Shown in pieces: positions 47,271 to 63,430 of a stretch of DNA of 64,000 bases; position 1 is the stretch's first letter; each line of letters opens with the position of its first letter. The DNA is from Larkinella rosea. GTDB lineage: Bacteria > Bacteroidota > Bacteroidia > Cytophagales > Spirosomataceae. Location: positions 373,941 to 437,940 of the forward strand of contig NZ_RQJO01000007.1 of the NCBI RefSeq assembly GCF_003858635.1, given 5' to 3'. A program made the translations under genes and the position numbers. The notes under the pieces are model-generated. The model did no database searches and was not told the origin of the DNA. It was given only the letters and a program-made list of their open reading frames with translations.

Positions 47271-47369
47271 CTATGATTGCGGTGATTTTAAATGATGTAA
47301 TGATGATTGATCTGATCTCATAATCATTTCAATCACTGTAATCATAGTCCATCACCGTAATCATAGTCA
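47268..47369. repeat. Inverted repeat spanning both stop codons
   Basis: TGACTATGATTGCGGTGAT (47268-47286) pairs with ATCACCGTAATCATAGTCA (47351-47369), 18 of 19 positions. The left arm starts with the trmD stop, and the right arm contains the stop of the convergent GT51 gene. Extra copies of the word AATCATAGTC lie inside. Confidence 0.6.
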
Positions 47370-49556
47370 GTTCTCCTGTTTTTCCTGTTCCTCTTTTTCC
47401 CGGCGACGTTGTTCCCGACGTTCTTTACGGAGTTGCCGACGCGATTTGGGAACAGAATCCGTCGGTGCAACTTCTCCTTTTCCTTTGGCTGCTTCCTGTT
47501 CAGGATTCACCACCTCCGGTTCTTCGCGGTCACGGCCTAATACCCGCCGGAAAAAATCACCGACGCCATTGGCGCTTTCTTCCGTTTCTTCATCCGGCAT
47601 CATCAACGAGTCGATCTCGATGGAGTCGGCCGGTGCGATTTCCTGACGCAATCCTTCGCGCAAACGAACTCCGTAAAAACCGTATGCGGTTGTATCATAA
47701 GGTGTTAGCCCCCGGGAAGCCATGATTCGCCCAATCAATTTGAAATAACCCCGAAGATAGGTCTTGACCGAACCATCCGGATAAAACCGGCTCAGCGTAG
47801 CCTTCGGCGATGGCACGACGTACGACAATAGAATACTTTCGCCAATGTCAAGGTTGGAGGGACTTTTCGCGAAGTAATACCGGGATGCCTCGCCGATGCC
47901 GTAGATATTCCGACCCCACTCGATGAAGTTGAGGTAGATCTCATACATCCGTTCTTTGCTGATAATGTGCTGATTTTCAATTAACCAGACGATCAGAATC
48001 TCTTCAGCTTTGCGGGAAAGCGTTTTGTTGCGGTTCAGAAAAGCATTTTTGACAAACTGCATTGAGATGGTGCTTCCCCCGCGCTTGAATTTCTTCGTCT
48101 TGAAGTTGGTTGCCAGCGAAACCCGAAACGCTTTTTCGTTAAACCCGTTGTGGGTGAAGAAGTTGTAATCTTCGGCCGTCAGAATGGCGTTGCGGAGATT
48201 GGGTGAAATGGAATTCAGCGGGGTAAAATCCGGATTTTCGGGACCAACGATAAACTTGCGAACCAGCTTGTCTTTTTCGTATACCTCGTGTTCGAACGAT
48301 TTGTTTACCCGGCTGAAATCTTCTTTCCCAAATTGCAGAATCTTGAACTGATCCGGCGTCAGACCGGACGAGAACTGTACCGAATCGGGCAGCGAACTGT
48401 CCAGATGCAAAACCGCATCGTATTTGAGTTTCCCCGACACTTTCATGCCTTCCAGTGACTCAAAAAGGCCTTGTGGAAACGAATCAAATATATCCTGAGC
48501 TTCCTGTGAATCGGTATGAACCTGAACGTCGTATATCTTGACCGGCGAAACCGTGTATTTGATAAACGGTCGGGCTTTGGCTTTCCCCAAATAAATGGTC
48601 GATGAACTGTCGATACCGATATAATTCTCGCCGACAAACAAATTGGCATCCATGGCGGCATTCTCAACCAGCACATCACCCAGCGCAACGGCCGGGTGAT
48701 TAATCCGCAGATTGCGCACTGCTCCGGCTCCCTCAATCTTGAATTCTCCTCCTGAACTGGCCACATCGCGAAGCTCCGCCCGCAAGGTATCGGCCTGTAA
48801 TTTAAGCTTAAACCGATGTTCCAGATAAGGTAATTCGAGCGGTTTTCCATCGGCGTAGAGCGCCACGTTGGCTTCCTGATCCGAAGCGGCCACGGTTCCA
48901 ACCAGGTGCCAGACCGACTCCCCGTTGTTGACCCGAATGGTCGAGGTCAGTTCGTCATCGTCGATGGTGGCGGTTTGAGTCAGAAAGCTCAGTTGCCGTT
49001 CGTTGTCCGTAAACCGCAATTCCAGGTTGCGGACATCCATGTTGGCCGGAATTTTGGCCAGCAGGTTATCGACCAGATTTTCGGCCACAACCGACAGATC
49101 GACTTTCCGACTGTTGTCGGTGGTTTCCGTTGCCGCCGTCGAGTCTTTCTTGTGCGATTTTAGGAGAAAATCGATGTTGGTGGTACTATCCCGTTTAACA
49201 ACGTGGGCAAGACCATTTTGCAACGTTAGCGAGGCAACGGCAACTTTTCCGAAAATCAGAGGCCAGATGCTGACACCGACTTCTGTTTTTTCGACCCGCA
49301 ACAGACTGTCGCGTCCTTCCGGTACTACCGTGACGTTGGAAAAAGCCACCGTAGAAAAACCGGTAAATTGCGCCTTGCCAATGGTAACATTCAGATCATA
49401 GTCGCGTTTGGCTTTCCGAATGGCCCGGGAGAGCCCTTCTTTCAGCAGTGCTTCGCGTTTGTTGTAGGCAATACCGGCTCCAATAGCCCCCAGAATCAGA
49501 AATCCCAGCAGCACCCAGCCCGAGATGATCAGTATTCGTTTTTTGTTGAATTGCAT
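47367..49556 (-). CDS. AsmA-like/GT51 peptidoglycan transglycosylase
   Basis: About 729 residues from the ATG at 49556 (MQFNKKR); an upstream ATG at 49601 adds a leader. N-terminal membrane anchor (ILIISGWVLLGFLILGAIGA), an AsmA-like beta region to about 430 (FSNVTVVPEGRDSLLRVEKT), then a GT51 domain: LTAEDYNFFTHNGFNEKAF with the catalytic Glu, KRGGSTISMQFVKNAFLNRN, LSRKAEEILIVWLIE, YLNFIEWGRNIYGIG. No transpeptidase domain; the C-terminus is Lys/Arg/Glu-rich. It should polymerise lipid II in the periplasm. Confidence 0.88.
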   Translation of the reverse strand: MQFNKKRILIISGWVLLGFLILGAIGAGIAYNKREALLKEGLSRAIRKAKRDYDLNVTIGKAQFTGFSTVAFSNVTVVPEGRDSLLRVEKTEVGVSIWPLIFGKVAVASLTLQNGLAHVVKRDSTTNIDFLLKSHKKDSTAATETTDNSRKVDLSVVAENLVDNLLAKIPANMDVRNLELRFTDNERQLSFLTQTATIDDDELTSTIRVNNGESVWHLVGTVAASDQEANVALYADGKPLELPYLEHRFKLKLQADTLRAELRDVASSGGEFKIEGAGAVRNLRINHPAVALGDVLVENAAMDANLFVGENYIGIDSSSTIYLGKAKARPFIKYTVSPVKIYDVQVHTDSQEAQDIFDSFPQGLFESLEGMKVSGKLKYDAVLHLDSSLPDSVQFSSGLTPDQFKILQFGKEDFSRVNKSFEHEVYEKDKLVRKFIVGPENPDFTPLNSISPNLRNAILTAEDYNFFTHNGFNEKAFRVSLATNFKTKKFKRGGSTISMQFVKNAFLNRNKTLSRKAEEILIVWLIENQHIISKERMYEIYLNFIEWGRNIYGIGEASRYYFAKSPSNLDIGESILLSYVVPSPKATLSRFYPDGSVKTYLRGYFKLIGRIMASRGLTPYDTTAYGFYGVRLREGLRQEIAPADSIEIDSLMMPDEETEESANGVGDFFRRVLGRDREEPEVVNPEQEAAKGKGEVAPTDSVPKSRRQLRKERREQRRREKEEQEKQEN

Positions 49557-49621
49557 TGTAAACAAGTAAAGTGATCCGAAAAGGCATTCCGGCACTTTCA
49601 TGGTGTGGCGCGAAGTTACGG

Positions 49622-51878: not shown

Positions 51879-52763
51879 GTGAAGGATTGGCCGGTGATTT
51901 CTGATTTTTCCCGGCTCCACTACTTGCCTGACCCGTTTCCGGAACCGGTTCCGCTTCAGCTCTATCTGAAGCGGGATGACGAACTGCATCCAACCATTTC
52001 GGGCAACAAGTGGCGTAAGCTCAAGTACAATCTCGCTGAAGCTCGGCGATTAGGCTACCAGACCCTGCTGACCTACGGCGGAGCCTACTCCAATCACATA
52101 TATGCCGTCGCGGCTGCCGGTTCCGAATACGGTTTTTCCACCATCGGGATTATTCGGGGAGAAGACCACCGGGAGCGCGATAATCCGACCCTGGCGTTCG
52201 CCCGGGCGCAGGGAATGCATCTCCATTTTGTGACGCGCCAGCAATTCAGAAACCGCTCAGATGCGGTTTTTCAGCAGGACATCCGGCAACGGTTTGGCAC
52301 GTTTTACGAACTTCCGGAAGGAGGAACGAACGAACTGGCCATTCGGGGGACTGCGGAGATAATTCCGGAAATTTTAACTCAGTTGGAAGGGGAAATACCA
52401 GACTTCGTTTGCTGCCCGGTCGGAACCGGAGGAACGTTGGCTGGCCTGGAAAAAACCGCCCCGCCCGGTGTAAAAATCCTGGGCTTTTCTTCACTAAAAG
52501 GCTACAATTCCGAACCCAATTCAAGGGCACAGGTACTGACGGAGTACCATTTTGGCGGATATGCCAAAACAACGCCCGCATTAATTGCCTTTATCCGTGA
52601 TTTTGAAAAAAAAAATCAGGTACGACTCGAACAGGTTTATACCGGCAAAATGCTGTTTGGGATCTTTGATTTGGCCAGAAAAGGCGTTTTTTTATCAGAC
52701 ACAAAGGTTGTTGCCATTCACACCGGGGGACTGCAGGGACGAAGTGAAAAATTAGATTGCTAA
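51879..52763 (+). CDS. PLP-dependent D-cysteine desulfhydrase/ACC deaminase-like enzyme
   Basis: 294 residues starting at GTG 51879. Fold type II PLP enzyme: LYLKRDDELHPTISGNKWRK includes the Schiff-base Lys (K44), TYGGAYSNHIYAVAAAG binds phosphate or carboxylate, and VCCPVGTGGTLAGL and AIHTGGLQG complete the site. Candidates are D-cysteine desulfhydrase and 1-aminocyclopropane-1-carboxylate deaminase; these cannot be separated here. Confidence 0.88.
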   Translation: MKDWPVISDFSRLHYLPDPFPEPVPLQLYLKRDDELHPTISGNKWRKLKYNLAEARRLGYQTLLTYGGAYSNHIYAVAAAGSEYGFSTIGIIRGEDHRERDNPTLAFARAQGMHLHFVTRQQFRNRSDAVFQQDIRQRFGTFYELPEGGTNELAIRGTAEIIPEILTQLEGEIPDFVCCPVGTGGTLAGLEKTAPPGVKILGFSSLKGYNSEPNSRAQVLTEYHFGGYAKTTPALIAFIRDFEKKNQVRLEQVYTGKMLFGIFDLARKGVFLSDTKVVAIHTGGLQGRSEKLDC

Positions 52764-52823: not shown

Positions 52824-53588
52824 ATGAAGATAGTTTTAATTACGCAGGACGATCCCTTTTATTTAGCCCGAAATCTTGACTATCTTCTGAAAAAGTTACC
52901 GCCATTTGCCCAGGTGGTTGGAACGGTGGTGGCGGATGTATCCCCATTTGGCAAACGGGAAACGTTTACCCAAAAAGCCCGAAAAACGTACTCCATTTTT
53001 GGCGGCCCCTTTTTTCTGCGCTACGGCCTGAAGTTCATTCTCTCCAAACTACGTCGACAAAATAGCGTCAGGTACGTGCTGAAAAAACATGGCGTGCCGT
53101 TGATTCATCTGGAAGGAAACATCAACCGTCCGGAAAGTCTCCAGAAAATAGCCGCCTACCAGCCGGATTTGCTCATCTCCATCGCTGGAAATCAAATTTT
53201 TAAACGACCGCTCATCGATCTCGCACCGAAAGGCTGCCTGAACCTGCACACCGCCTTGCTGCCCAAATACCGGGGATTAATGCCCTCTTTCTGGGTAATG
53301 AAAAACGACGAAAAATACACCGGGGTTTCGGTTTTTTTCGTCGATGAAGGCATTGACAGCGGGCCAATTCTGGTGCAGAAAAAAGTAGAAATCGGCAACC
53401 GCTCGCAGGCCGGTCTGATCAAATATACCAAGCAATTGGGCATGGATGCGATTGTTGAAAGCGTGGAGAAAATTCATGCCGGAACGTACGAGCTGATTGA
53501 AAATGATGCATCTCAAATGACCTATTTCTCATTCCCGACGCGCGAGGATGTAAATGCATTTCTGGCCGCTGGCAAAACCTTTTACTGA
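52824..53588 (+). CDS. Formyltransferase-family enzyme
   Basis: 254 residues. Formyl_trans_N domain: CLNLHTALLPKYRGLMPSFW contains the conserved His and RG of the N10-formyl-THF site; VSVFFVDEGIDSGPILVQKK supplies the catalytic Asp region. It lacks the C-terminal domain of methionyl-tRNA formyltransferase, so a sugar-amine or other formyltransferase is more likely. It ends 3 bases before the deacetylase-family gene, suggesting sequential action on one substrate. Confidence 0.85.
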   Translation: MKIVLITQDDPFYLARNLDYLLKKLPPFAQVVGTVVADVSPFGKRETFTQKARKTYSIFGGPFFLRYGLKFILSKLRRQNSVRYVLKKHGVPLIHLEGNINRPESLQKIAAYQPDLLISIAGNQIFKRPLIDLAPKGCLNLHTALLPKYRGLMPSFWVMKNDEKYTGVSVFFVDEGIDSGPILVQKKVEIGNRSQAGLIKYTKQLGMDAIVESVEKIHAGTYELIENDASQMTYFSFPTREDVNAFLAAGKTFY

Positions 53589-53591
53589 GCG

Positions 53592-54452
53592 ATGAATATT
53601 TTAACTTTCGACATCGAGGAGTGGTTTCACTTGCTCGACAACCCCTCCACCAAGACCGAGCAGGACTGGTGTCAATATGAATGCCGGCTTCACCGCAATG
53701 TGGACCGGATTTTTCAGCTATTGGAAGAAACCAATTCGCGGGCTACTTTTTTTTGCCTCGGCTGGGTGGCTCGAAAATACCCCGACGTTATTCGCCGGAT
53801 CGATGCGGCCGGATATGAAGTGGCAACGCATTCGGACCTCCACCAGTTGGTTTACGAGCAATCTCCCCATGAATGCCGCACCGACCTGGACCGTTCGATC
53901 AAGTCGCTTCAGGATGTTACCGGTAAAAAAGTGAGTTACTACCGGGCACCCGGTTTTTCGGTCAAGGAGCAAAATCGCTGGATTTTTCCGTTGCTGATGG
54001 AGTTGGGAATCGAGATCGATTGTTCGATGTTCCCCGCGCGCCGGGCCCACGGTGGCGATTCGTCTTTCGGGATTGCAAAACCGTGTTACATCGACGTGGA
54101 CGGGGCGATGTTAAAAGAGTTTCCGATCAACACGGTCAATTTGCTGGGCCAGGACCTGATTTTTTCGGGGGGCGGTTATTTTCGGTTATTGCCGTATGCC
54201 GTCATCCAGAATTTTATGCGCCAATCGCCGTATGTCATGACGTATTTTCATCCCCGCGACTTCGATCCCCAACAGCCGATGGTGCCGGGCCTCAGCCGGT
54301 TGCGGCAATTTAAATCCTATTACGGCCTGAGTGGATGCTGGGAAAAACTGAGGCATTTGCTGACGGATTACCGCTTTGTGGACTTGCAGGAAGCCGATCG
54401 GCAGGTGAAATGGTCGGAAAGCCGGGTTCAGCGATTCCAAGTAAATTCATAA
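53592..54452 (+). CDS. Polysaccharide deacetylase-family (NodB fold) protein
   Basis: 286 residues, no signal peptide. NodB motifs: TFDIEEWFH with the catalytic Asp, ATHSDLHQLVYEQSP with metal-binding His, YYRAPGFSVKEQNRWIFPLL, then YFHPRDFDPQQP. The pattern with a C-terminal extension resembles the DUF3473-type deacetylases of exopolysaccharide loci. It is cytoplasmic or membrane-associated and may act on the same compound as the formyltransferase upstream. Confidence 0.88.
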   Translation: MNILTFDIEEWFHLLDNPSTKTEQDWCQYECRLHRNVDRIFQLLEETNSRATFFCLGWVARKYPDVIRRIDAAGYEVATHSDLHQLVYEQSPHECRTDLDRSIKSLQDVTGKKVSYYRAPGFSVKEQNRWIFPLLMELGIEIDCSMFPARRAHGGDSSFGIAKPCYIDVDGAMLKEFPINTVNLLGQDLIFSGGGYFRLLPYAVIQNFMRQSPYVMTYFHPRDFDPQQPMVPGLSRLRQFKSYYGLSGCWEKLRHLLTDYRFVDLQEADRQVKWSESRVQRFQVNS

Positions 54453-54506: not shown

Positions 54507-55499
54507 ATGGAATATCGGAAATTGGGTGAGTCGGACCTGACGGTTTCGGCAATTGCCTTCGGAGCCTGGGCCGTCGGTGGCTGGATGTGGGGTGGAACGG
54601 AGCGGAAAGACGCTGTTGAAGCCATCAAAGCGTCGTTTGACCTCGGCGTAACCACCATCGACACGGCACCGGTTTATGGCCAGGGGACCAGCGAAGAAAT
54701 CGTCGGCGAAGCCATCAGGGGCATTCCGCGCGACCAGGTTCAGATTCTGACCAAATACGGCATGCGCTGGAATCTGGCAAAAGGAACGCTGGCTTTTCAT
54801 ACCAGAGACAACCACGGAACGCCGATTGATGTCTATAAATTTGCGTCGAAAGAAAGTATCATTAAAGAATGCGAAGACAGCCTGGAACGGCTGGGAACGG
54901 ATTACATTGATCTGTATCAGATCCACTGGCCGGATGTTACCACCCCGATTTCGGAGACGATGGAAGCCGTGAGCCGATTGATTGAACAGGGAAAAGTTCG
55001 GGAAGCGGGCGTTTCCAACTACAATGTCGAGCAGATGAAAGAAGCGGAACGAACGTTGAAATTGGTCTCGAATCAGGTTTCCTACAGCATGGTTAAGCGG
55101 GATATTGAAGCCGAACTGGTGCCCTATTGCCTGGAAACAAACAAATCGATTGTGGCTTACAGCCCGTTGGAACGTGGTTTGCTCGCCGGGAAAATCAGGC
55201 CGGGGCATCAGTTTGCCGAAGGCGATCACCGGGTGAATTACAAAGCGTTTAAAGACGGAAATATTGACCGGGTTTGGCCCATGCTGGACCAGCTCAACGC
55301 CCTTGCCGATCAGAAACAGGTGACAATGAGTCAATTGGTTATCCGCTGGACCATCGATCGGCCCGCCATCACGGTGGCGCTGGTGGGCGCCCGAAATGCC
55401 GAACAGGCCGTTCAGAATGCCAAAGCCATGGATGTAACGCTTACCGCCGACGAAACCGCCTATATCAATCAGCTACTGGAAACAGTAACGCTGGTGTAA
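54507..55499 (+). CDS. Aldo/keto reductase
   Basis: 330 residues. NADP-dependent TIM-barrel oxidoreductase: KLGESDLTVSAIAFGAWAVG, TTIDTAPVYGQGTSEEIVGE (Asp, Tyr), LTKYGMRW (Lys), LYQIHWPDVTTP (His), AGVSNYNVEQMKE, YSPLERGLLAGKI and VALVGARNAEQ at the cofactor site. Substrate unknown. Converges on the cupin gene with a strong GC-rich hairpin between. Confidence 0.94.
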   Translation: MEYRKLGESDLTVSAIAFGAWAVGGWMWGGTERKDAVEAIKASFDLGVTTIDTAPVYGQGTSEEIVGEAIRGIPRDQVQILTKYGMRWNLAKGTLAFHTRDNHGTPIDVYKFASKESIIKECEDSLERLGTDYIDLYQIHWPDVTTPISETMEAVSRLIEQGKVREAGVSNYNVEQMKEAERTLKLVSNQVSYSMVKRDIEAELVPYCLETNKSIVAYSPLERGLLAGKIRPGHQFAEGDHRVNYKAFKDGNIDRVWPMLDQLNALADQKQVTMSQLVIRWTIDRPAITVALVGARNAEQAVQNAKAMDVTLTADETAYINQLLETVTLV

Positions 55500-61199: not shown

Positions 61200-61207
61200 T
61201 ACCTTTG
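61200..61207 (+). promoter_or_regulatory. -7 element TACCTTTG upstream of the radical SAM gene
   Basis: Perfect TAnnTTTG. The in-frame TTG at 61205 lies inside it, so translation cannot start there if this promoter is used; the next TTG at 61232 is a better start. Confidence 0.5.
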
Positions 61208-61231
61208 TGGGGAACGAAGCGCCGTTACTCC

Positions 61232-63430
61232 TTGGAACCAAAAATCCTTTTTATTACACCACCTTTCACGCAGCTCAATACGCCGTACCCGGCGACGGCT
61301 TACCTGAAAGGGTTTCTGAATACGAAAGGCTTTCGTTCACACCAGGCTGATTTAGGCATTGAGGTGATTCTGAACCTGTTTTCGGCGAAGGGGCTGAAAA
61401 CGCTATTCGACGAACTGGAGGCTTCCGACGCGGAATTATCCGAAAACAGCTACCGGATTTTTTCGCTGAAGGATGACTACATCAGCACCATTGACCCGGT
61501 CATCCGGTTTTTGCAGAACAAAAATCCAACGCTGGCCCACAGCATTTGCGACCGGTCGTATTTGCCAGAAGCTTCCCGGTTTGCGCAACTTGATGAAATG
61601 GATTGGGCCTTTGGAACGATGGGGATTCACGACAAAGCCCGCCATCTGGCAACCTTATACCTCGAAGACCTGGCCGATCTGATTACCGAAGCGGTGGACC
61701 CGCACTTTGGTTTCAGCCGGTACGCCGAACGCCTGGGTCGCTCGGCAACGCATTTCGACGAAATCAACGCGGCACTGTTAGCGCCCGAAACCCTGATTTC
61801 GGCTACATTAACGAATCGGCTCGAAAAACGGATTCAGGAATGGAACCCCAGCGTAGTTTGCCTGACGGTTCCGTTTCCGGGAAATCTGTACGGCGCCTTA
61901 AAGTGCGGACAATACATTAAGAAAAACCATCCGCAGATTGCCGTCGTTATGGGCGGAGGGTACGCCAATACCGAACTTCGCTCGCTGAAGGAGCCCCGCG
62001 TGTTTGATTTCGTCGATTACATCTGCCTCGACGATGGCGAAGCTCCGCTGCTCTCTCTGCTGGATTACCTGGCGGGAAACCGCGAACGGGAGAGTTTGAA
62101 GCGGGTGTATTCGCGGGTGAACGGCGTCGTGACGTACCACAACCAGAACCGGGAGCGGGATATTCCGCAACGCGATACCGGAACGCCCGACTACCGTGAT
62201 TTACCGCTGAACGACTATTTATCAGTCATCGAAATCGTCAATCCGATGCACCGGCTCTGGAGCGACGGACGCTGGAACAAGCTGACGCTGGCGCACGGTT
62301 GCTACTGGGGGAAATGCTCTTTTTGCGACGTAACGCTCGACTACATCAAACGCTACGAACCGCTGACGGCGGCTTTGCTCTGCGACCGGATCGAAGAAAT
62401 GATCGAACAAACCGGCCAGAACGGTTTTCACTTTGTCGACGAAGCCGCTCCGCCCGCCTTGATGCGCGATCTGGCGCTGGAAATCATTCGCCGGAAGCTG
62501 ACCGTGGTCTGGTGGACGAACATCCGGTTCGAAAAAAACTTCACGCCCGATCTGTGTCGCTTGTTGAAAGCGTCGGGCTGCATTGCGGTTTCCGGGGGGC
62601 TGGAAGTGGCCTCGGACCGGCTACTCGAACGCATGAAAAAAGGCGTAACCGTGGCGCAGGTGGCCCGCGTAGCCGATGGATTCACCCAGGCGGGCATCAT
62701 GGTCCACGCCTATCTGATGTACGGTTTTCCGACGCAAACCGCCCAGGAAACGATCGATTCGCTGGAAATGGTCCGGCAATTGTTCGAAGCCGGGATTGTG
62801 CAATCGGGATTCTGGCACCGGTTTGCCATGACTGCCCACAGCCCGGTGGGTTTGCATCCGGCCGGGTTCGACGTGATGCGAATCGGCCCCGAAACCGGTT
62901 TATTTGCCGACAACGATCTGGATCATGACGACCCGCTCGGCTGCGACCACGGCCAGTTCTCGGAAGGCTTACGGAAGTCGCTGTTCAATTACATGCACGG
63001 CGTGTGTTTCGAGTTTCCGCTCAAAAGCTGGTTTGACTTTAAAACGCCAACGACTACCATTCCCCCGAACTATATTGCGAAGAGTATACGCCAGTTGTCA
63101 GACAATGATTTTCGGCCCAATGCGCTCGTGATCTGGCTGGGGAGTGTGCCGAATCTTTCGGTGCTGGAAGTCAAAAAGGGTAAAAAGGTAGTTGAACTGG
63201 CCGAACTGGTTTTTTATTCGAAGAAAAACGAATGGGCGCTGGAAACGAGCGTGCCGGTGGGTGAGTGGCTGGCGAAAATCATGCCCCAACTGGTTATTGC
63301 CAAGCACGAACCCTGGTCCCTCGACGGCTTAAAAGCGGACTTTGAAACCGCCGGGTTAGGGAGCTTTGGGGACTTCATGCAGTCGGAAACCGGTCGAAGT
63401 TTGCGGCAGAATGGCCTGTTAGTGGTGTAA
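61232..63430 (+). CDS. B12-binding-domain radical SAM protein
   Basis: About 732 residues from the TTG at 61232 (first residues EPKILFITPPFTQLNTPYP); a longer start at 61205 falls within a promoter element. N-terminal B12-binding-like Rossmann part (about 1-280, VVMGGGYANTEL), then the SAM domain with the FeS-binding CxxxxxCxxC in HGCYWGKCSFCDV (near residue 357), GFHFVDEAAPPALM and SGGLEVASDRLLERMKKGVT. It catalyses an unknown radical reaction. No partner enzyme is visible nearby. Confidence 0.9.
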   Translation: MEPKILFITPPFTQLNTPYPATAYLKGFLNTKGFRSHQADLGIEVILNLFSAKGLKTLFDELEASDAELSENSYRIFSLKDDYISTIDPVIRFLQNKNPTLAHSICDRSYLPEASRFAQLDEMDWAFGTMGIHDKARHLATLYLEDLADLITEAVDPHFGFSRYAERLGRSATHFDEINAALLAPETLISATLTNRLEKRIQEWNPSVVCLTVPFPGNLYGALKCGQYIKKNHPQIAVVMGGGYANTELRSLKEPRVFDFVDYICLDDGEAPLLSLLDYLAGNRERESLKRVYSRVNGVVTYHNQNRERDIPQRDTGTPDYRDLPLNDYLSVIEIVNPMHRLWSDGRWNKLTLAHGCYWGKCSFCDVTLDYIKRYEPLTAALLCDRIEEMIEQTGQNGFHFVDEAAPPALMRDLALEIIRRKLTVVWWTNIRFEKNFTPDLCRLLKASGCIAVSGGLEVASDRLLERMKKGVTVAQVARVADGFTQAGIMVHAYLMYGFPTQTAQETIDSLEMVRQLFEAGIVQSGFWHRFAMTAHSPVGLHPAGFDVMRIGPETGLFADNDLDHDDPLGCDHGQFSEGLRKSLFNYMHGVCFEFPLKSWFDFKTPTTTIPPNYIAKSIRQLSDNDFRPNALVIWLGSVPNLSVLEVKKGKKVVELAELVFYSKKNEWALETSVPVGEWLAKIMPQLVIAKHEPWSLDGLKADFETAGLGSFGDFMQSETGRSLRQNGLLVV

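Follow-up and report, generated by a model that had tools for sequence, protein, structure and literature searches.

Among the described systems, ArnA and ArnD come close to the gene pair analysed here, a formyltransferase (FT) followed by a NodB-fold deacetylase (PDA): the formyltransferase domain of ArnA and ArnD belong to the same two enzyme superfamilies, and FT shares the fold and the active site of the ArnA domain. The FT–PDA pair differs in having no decarboxylase domain, few aminotransferases nearby, a PDA that carries DUF3473, and a place in Wzx/Wzy-type polysaccharide loci. In the XrtA/PEP-CTERM system (TIGR03006), a DUF3473-type deacetylase likewise adjoins an N-acyl transferase, in that case of the FemAB type. 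TIGR03006 is the nearest NCBIfam model to PDA; however, PDA remains below its cut-off (236.5 of 276.2 bits), has a formyltransferase as its partner and carries the motif HPRD instead of HPWE or HPWD. According to passages of two papers on the Caulobacter holdfast, the deacetylase HfsH and the GNAT enzyme HfsK also combine deacetylation and N-acylation on a polysaccharide precursor (PMC8449245, PMC5362036). In the same passages HfsH is proposed to expose amines for acylation by HfsK (PMC5362036), and hfsK is located outside the hfs locus (PMC8449245). Both the acyl group and the acylating enzyme family differ from those of FT–PDA. Finally, the 3- and 4-amino-sugar N-formyltransferases of the WlaRD, QdtF, WbkC, and VioF type are members of the PF00551 superfamily and share their fold with FT. 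An aminotransferase adjoins the formyltransferase in the control loci of this type (3/3, one of the control formyltransferases being under its family cut-off), whereas in FT–PDA loci a deacetylase is found there instead.

A literature search that covered few subscription journals returned nothing on DUF3473, on a conserved DUF3473–formyltransferase pair, on N-formylglucosamine in connection with polysaccharide, or on XrtA together with FemAB and a polysaccharide deacetylase. Each half of the pair is known, and the conserved pair, with its swap logic, is undescribed in the literature reached. We propose, at about even confidence, that FT and PDA constitute a cassette of two genes for an N-acyl swap on a surface polysaccharide; it would deacetylate a lipid-linked GlcNAc-type sugar and then formylate it.

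The Gene Pair in Larkinella rosea

The window is the whole stretch of 64,000 nucleotides of L. rosea DNA that was analysed, and the coordinates below refer to it. Its open reading frames, together with the Pfam matches, bear out the original prediction of a formyltransferase gene followed 3 bases later by a NodB-fold gene; both are on the same strand. The features of the locus are the following:

51879..52763, + strand, left flank, PLP enzyme of the D-cysteine desulfhydrase/ACC deaminase group (PF00291)
52824..53588, + strand, FT, formyltransferase of 254 aa (PF00551, E 3.3e-23)
52965..53063, + strand, FT residues 48-80, basic, aromatic-rich two-helix stretch (helices 48-59 and 61-76 in the AF2 model)
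53241..53249, + strand, FT N140-x-H142 of the Asn-His-Asp active site (invariant in 42/42 aligned sequences)
53355..53357, + strand, FT D178, third active-site residue (invariant in 42/42 aligned sequences)
53592..54452, + strand, PDA, NodB-fold deacetylase of 286 aa (PF01522 and PF11959, DUF3473)
53610..53618, + strand, PDA motif 1, D7 and E9 (FDIEEWFH; invariant in 40/40, canonical form Asp-Asp)
53829..53843, + strand, PDA motif 2, expected metal ligands H80 and H84 (invariant in 40/40)
54021..54392, + strand, DUF3473 part of PDA, residues 144-267 (PF11959; contains H220, motif 5)
54507..55499, + strand, right flank, aldo/keto reductase (PF00248)

The two flanking enzymes are not thought to be part of the FT–PDA module; the left-flank PLP gene is kept in 9/9 genomes of the genus, whether they bear the pair or not. 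No DegT/ArnB-type aminotransferase was seen by eye in the list of open reading frames of the window. With FT as the only query, the nearest named relative is Larkinella knui (FT 85%). Elsewhere in the window, positions 47367-49601 encode a 744-aa protein in which a GT51 transglycosylase domain is limited to residues 453-602 and the long N-terminal part matches no Pfam model, and positions 61205-63430 a radical SAM protein with a B12-binding match under the curated cut-off.

FT is a member of the PF00551 superfamily (82.8 bits, cut-off 26.1) with a single Pfam domain; the fused decarboxylase domain of ArnA is absent. It is under every equivalog cut-off among the NCBIfam models listed, such as those for ArnA (88 bits, cut-off 777), the methionyl-tRNA formyltransferase Fmt (92.3 of 201.5), and the VioF-type dTDP-4-amino-sugar formyltransferase (41.9 of 238). 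An identity as Fmt or another housekeeping formyltransferase was ruled out by the score and by the weaker Fmt-like matches found elsewhere in the genome. Residues N140, H142, and D178 make up the Asn-His-Asp active site of the family. The AF2 model (pLDDT 92.6) is structurally closest to Fmt (Z 23.0), followed by the formyltransferase domain of ArnA (Z 22.3). Residues 48-80 have a mean net charge of +5.6 over 42 sequences and, as they appear in the model, possibly form a membrane- or lipid-facing element. The hydrophobic moment of helix 61-76 is no higher than that of shuffled sequences (31% of shuffles as high); an amphipathic membrane helix was for this reason rejected as evidence for a lipid substrate and left as a hint.

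PDA matches PF01522 with an E value of 2.1e-18 and PF11959 with 1.3e-32. The five NodB/CE4 motifs are given, in a passage of PMC10967932, as a tandem Asp, two His, Arg/Pro, and His. Residues H80, H84, R118, P120, and H220 of PDA are invariant, and its motif 1 is D7-x-E9 and not the tandem Asp. The HPRD sequence (H220 P221 R222 D223) is also invariant, in 40/40 aligned sequences. As a mark of an FT partner HPRD was discarded: it tracks the PDA clade instead (77/81 FT-paired), and is also found with ATP-grasp and GNAT neighbours. The AF2 model of PDA (pLDDT 92.2) matches 3rxz (Z 25.3), 3qbu (Z 23.5), PuuE (Z 21.0), and ArnD (8t0j, Z 20.5, rmsd 2.5, 215 aligned); 3rxz, 3qbu, and others equal or exceed the ArnD score, and a deacetylase is not told apart from a deformylase by the modelled fold.

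Conservation, Gain, and Loss of the Pair

Across 121 family genomes, full-length FT (E < 1e-90) and full-length PDA (E < 1e-100) are found in the same 36 genomes, from 13 genera, and neither is found in any other; this FT count leaves out a contig-end fragment (G105:C305, E 8.6e-41) and 18 matches (E 4.5e-24 to 9e-21, residues ~78-242) that we infer to be Fmt-type. The PDA of one genome (G045) has one in-frame stop. The two genes are adjacent in 34/36 pair-bearing genomes. In G001, FT is inside an exopolysaccharide cluster and PDA lies elsewhere, beside a GT2 gene. In G093, FT and PDA are near two contig ends (L043, L044), each beside the same ISL3-type transposase, so that this pair was probably split by insertion.

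A collection of 80 named loci, found by FT alone, comprises Bacteroidota, Balneolota, Marinimicrobia, Gammaproteobacteria (Vibrio, Thalassotalea, and Kangiella), SAR116, a Spirochaetia record, and others; it overlaps the 121 family genomes, and the two samples are not independent. PDA is directly downstream on the same strand in 77 of the 80 (a script identified 74; L171, L173, and L177 were read from the list of open reading frames), the exceptions being L129 (on the G093 contig), L136, and L172. The gap is of 10 bases or fewer in 42 of the 74 scripted loci, and 23 of those 42 overlap by one base. Chance adjacency is rejected because the two genes co-occur in the same 36/121 genomes and are adjacent in 77/80 loci. 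The original prediction had named separation of the pair in relatives, with unrelated neighbours, as the result that would speak against it; the neighbourhood survey found the pair kept in 77/80. A second FT of G005 (L048:10034-10807) has no adjoining PDA and is situated in a polysaccharide cluster, behind a DUF1972-like glycosyltransferase.

FT and PDA are gained or lost as a unit, and siblings with empty sites exist. Within the genus of the window, the pair lies between the left- and right-flank genes in 4/9 genomes, and these flank genes are 102-140 bases apart in 4/5 pairless genomes; in G071, also pairless, no such aldo/keto reductase passes the cut-off. The pair of a second genus (g5) is located in a polysaccharide locus, and the pairless genome G106 has both flanking genes as neighbours, while G055 has one other open reading frame between them.

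Polysaccharide Loci around the Pair

The pair had originally been described as standing alone, which is true only locally: in relatives it is found within polysaccharide loci, next to glycosyltransferase genes. Of 76 named loci, 45 have a glycosyltransferase gene immediately upstream of the pair, and five kinds are represented (GT2 26, WecG type 7, DUF1972 type 7, WbuB type 3, and Alg13-like 2). The upstream gene encodes something else in 22/76, and there is no same-strand gene within 300 bases in 9/76; the count leaves out L171, L172, L173, and L177 of the 80 loci, for which the ORF caller gave no FT row. Enzymes of the WecG, WbuB, and DUF1972 types work on lipid-linked GlcNAc at an early step, and some of the glycosyltransferase kinds upstream of the pair use GlcNAc-PP-undecaprenol as acceptor. 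A WecA-like initiator is present in 33/83 loci, a sample that includes 7 loci partly repeating named ones, and in other phyla the pair is found within whole polysaccharide loci (annotated by eye).

The GT2 glycosyltransferase near the pair is core to the family (111/121 genomes); its presence was therefore dropped as evidence, and only its position is informative. It is near the pair in 31/36 pair-bearing genomes (coordinates, by eye), in G001 near PDA only, and it is not near the pair in the four pair-bearing genomes of the window's genus or on the short G105 contig. The GT2 gene of the window's genome lies unlinked to the pair in a polysaccharide locus (G000:C10, ~61-72 kb) with a WecA-like initiator, a hexapeptide transferase, further glycosyltransferases, and a polytopic Wzy-like protein, assigned from relatives' genes by Pfam, except the Wzy-like protein, assigned by eye and without a Pfam match. 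By analogy with these relatives, the pair of the window may serve this unlinked locus.

Exchange of Partners

An aminotransferase is near the pair in 3/76 named loci (within up to ~10 kb a side). Three genomes in which the FT search found no FT (G156, G241, and G340) have a PDA that falls within the FT-paired clade, as placed in a quick tree with several long branches unsure and with L167, cut by a contig end, left out. In G156 and G241 an ATP-grasp-like protein adjoins PDA; the label in G156, where the protein has no Pfam match of its own, is by similarity to the L222 protein (69%), which is only just above the Pfam cut-off, and to the L211 protein (E 5e-19). A PDA of Pseudosulfitobacter, 46% identical, has a GNAT gene two open reading frames on. 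FTs that are 61-70% identical pair with PDAs only 36-39% identical. At least two other PDA clades also have FT as a partner; in one of them the gene order is reversed and the genes overlap by 4 bases. On a Haloarcula plasmid a deacetylase without a DUF3473 match is followed by FT, with a 4-base overlap.

The neighbours of 37 DUF3473 genes in a phylum sample are FT in 10 cases, an ATP-grasp-like protein in 5, GNAT in 1, and others in 21; the immediate neighbour of these 21 is no obvious N-acylating enzyme, and 5 of them adjoin methyltransferases. A GNAT or FemAB gene is the next listed gene in 7 of 12 plasmid loci examined (of 19 matches), which hold XrtA-type and archaeal DUF3473-type PDAs; it is behind a small open reading frame in 1/12, and neither is there in 4/12. 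All these ATP-grasp and GNAT counts are raw, both gene types being common in polysaccharide loci generally.

ATP-grasp-like proteins adjoin DUF3473 deacetylases at L210:10865-12103, L211:8328-9497, L214:10478-11686, L222:10698-11900, and L220:8411-9601, and may act as ligases that add an acyl group to the amine once it is free. Those of L210 and L222 are 69% identical, and their deacetylases come from different clades. Class I methyltransferases directly adjoin the deacetylases of L180, L181, L197, L201, and L225; they might methylate the freed amine or a hydroxyl close to it.

Proposed Reaction and Alternatives

The evidence supports FT and PDA as a functional pair whose substrate is most likely an amino sugar. 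In the swap proposed here, PDA would act first and de-N-acetylate an acetamido sugar. This sugar would most likely be of the GlcNAc type and belong to a precursor that is linked to undecaprenyl and faces the cytoplasm; FT would then move a formyl group from N10-formyl-THF onto the freed amine. The product would be a polysaccharide with an N-formyl sugar, in the case of GlcNAc 2-formamido-2-deoxyglucose. Deacetylation before formylation is favoured because aminotransferases are near only 3/76 pairs compared with 3/3 controls, because some genomes without FT have a PDA of the FT-paired clade, because FT is also found beside PDAs of other clades, in one case with the gene order reversed, and because other DUF3473 genes adjoin N-acylating enzymes. 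Against the swap, the fold of the deformylase ArnD is also close to that of PDA, 21/37 DUF3473 genes of the phylum sample adjoin no obvious N-acylating enzyme, and in the window's genus the pair is outside any polysaccharide locus; an aminotransferase may also be encoded elsewhere in a pair-bearing genome.

The original prediction followed the logic of Arn, in which FT would formylate an amino sugar nucleotide, the sugar would pass to the lipid carrier, and PDA would deformylate it. Its functional pair and its amino sugar are supported, and the folds of FT and PDA resemble those of the ArnA domain and, among others, ArnD, while its order of reactions loses ground to the few aminotransferases and to the PDAs without FT; it is less likely than deacetylation followed by formylation and, taken by itself, unlikely. 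The structural matches of FT to the ArnA domain and of PDA to ArnD speak for this order, as does the position of FT before PDA in nearly all pairs, although the latter would fit either order; ArnD is not the nearest fold to PDA, however, and FT lacks the decarboxylase domain. Another improbable version, on which we would place no more weight than on the Arn order, has the acetyl-to-formyl exchange precede transfer, with UDP-GlcNAc or another nucleotide sugar as the substrate. Among the structural matches, the sugar N-formyltransferases of solved structure are described, by their titles, with nucleotide sugars, and the lipid-linked substrate of the pair is itself deduced indirectly. Nevertheless, the pair follows several kinds of glycosyltransferase, some acting on GlcNAc-PP-undecaprenol, and the basic stretch of FT hints at membranes, with an amphipathicity not above chance. 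That FT and PDA share the locus alone and decorate different residues of one polysaccharide seems very improbable: both come from general polysaccharide-tailoring families, but their genes come and go as a unit and their partners are replaced by other N-acylating enzymes or by other PDA clades.

The acetyl-to-formyl swap can be placed in a wider and more doubtful scheme, which we put forward tentatively. DUF3473 deacetylases would expose the amine of a lipid-linked GlcNAc-type sugar, and the neighbouring enzyme (FT, FemAB/GNAT, or ATP-grasp) would set the acyl group, the FT form giving a 2-N-formyl sugar without an aminotransferase. If true, such interchangeable N-acyl-swap modules would extend over bacterial and archaeal polysaccharide assembly, and many environmental bacteria would have an aminotransferase-free route to N-formyl sugars. 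DUF3473 would gain a testable role, there would be a reason why some of these deacetylases adjoin enzymes that add acyl groups, and the gene beside the deacetylase would tell annotators which N-acyl group to expect on a surface sugar.
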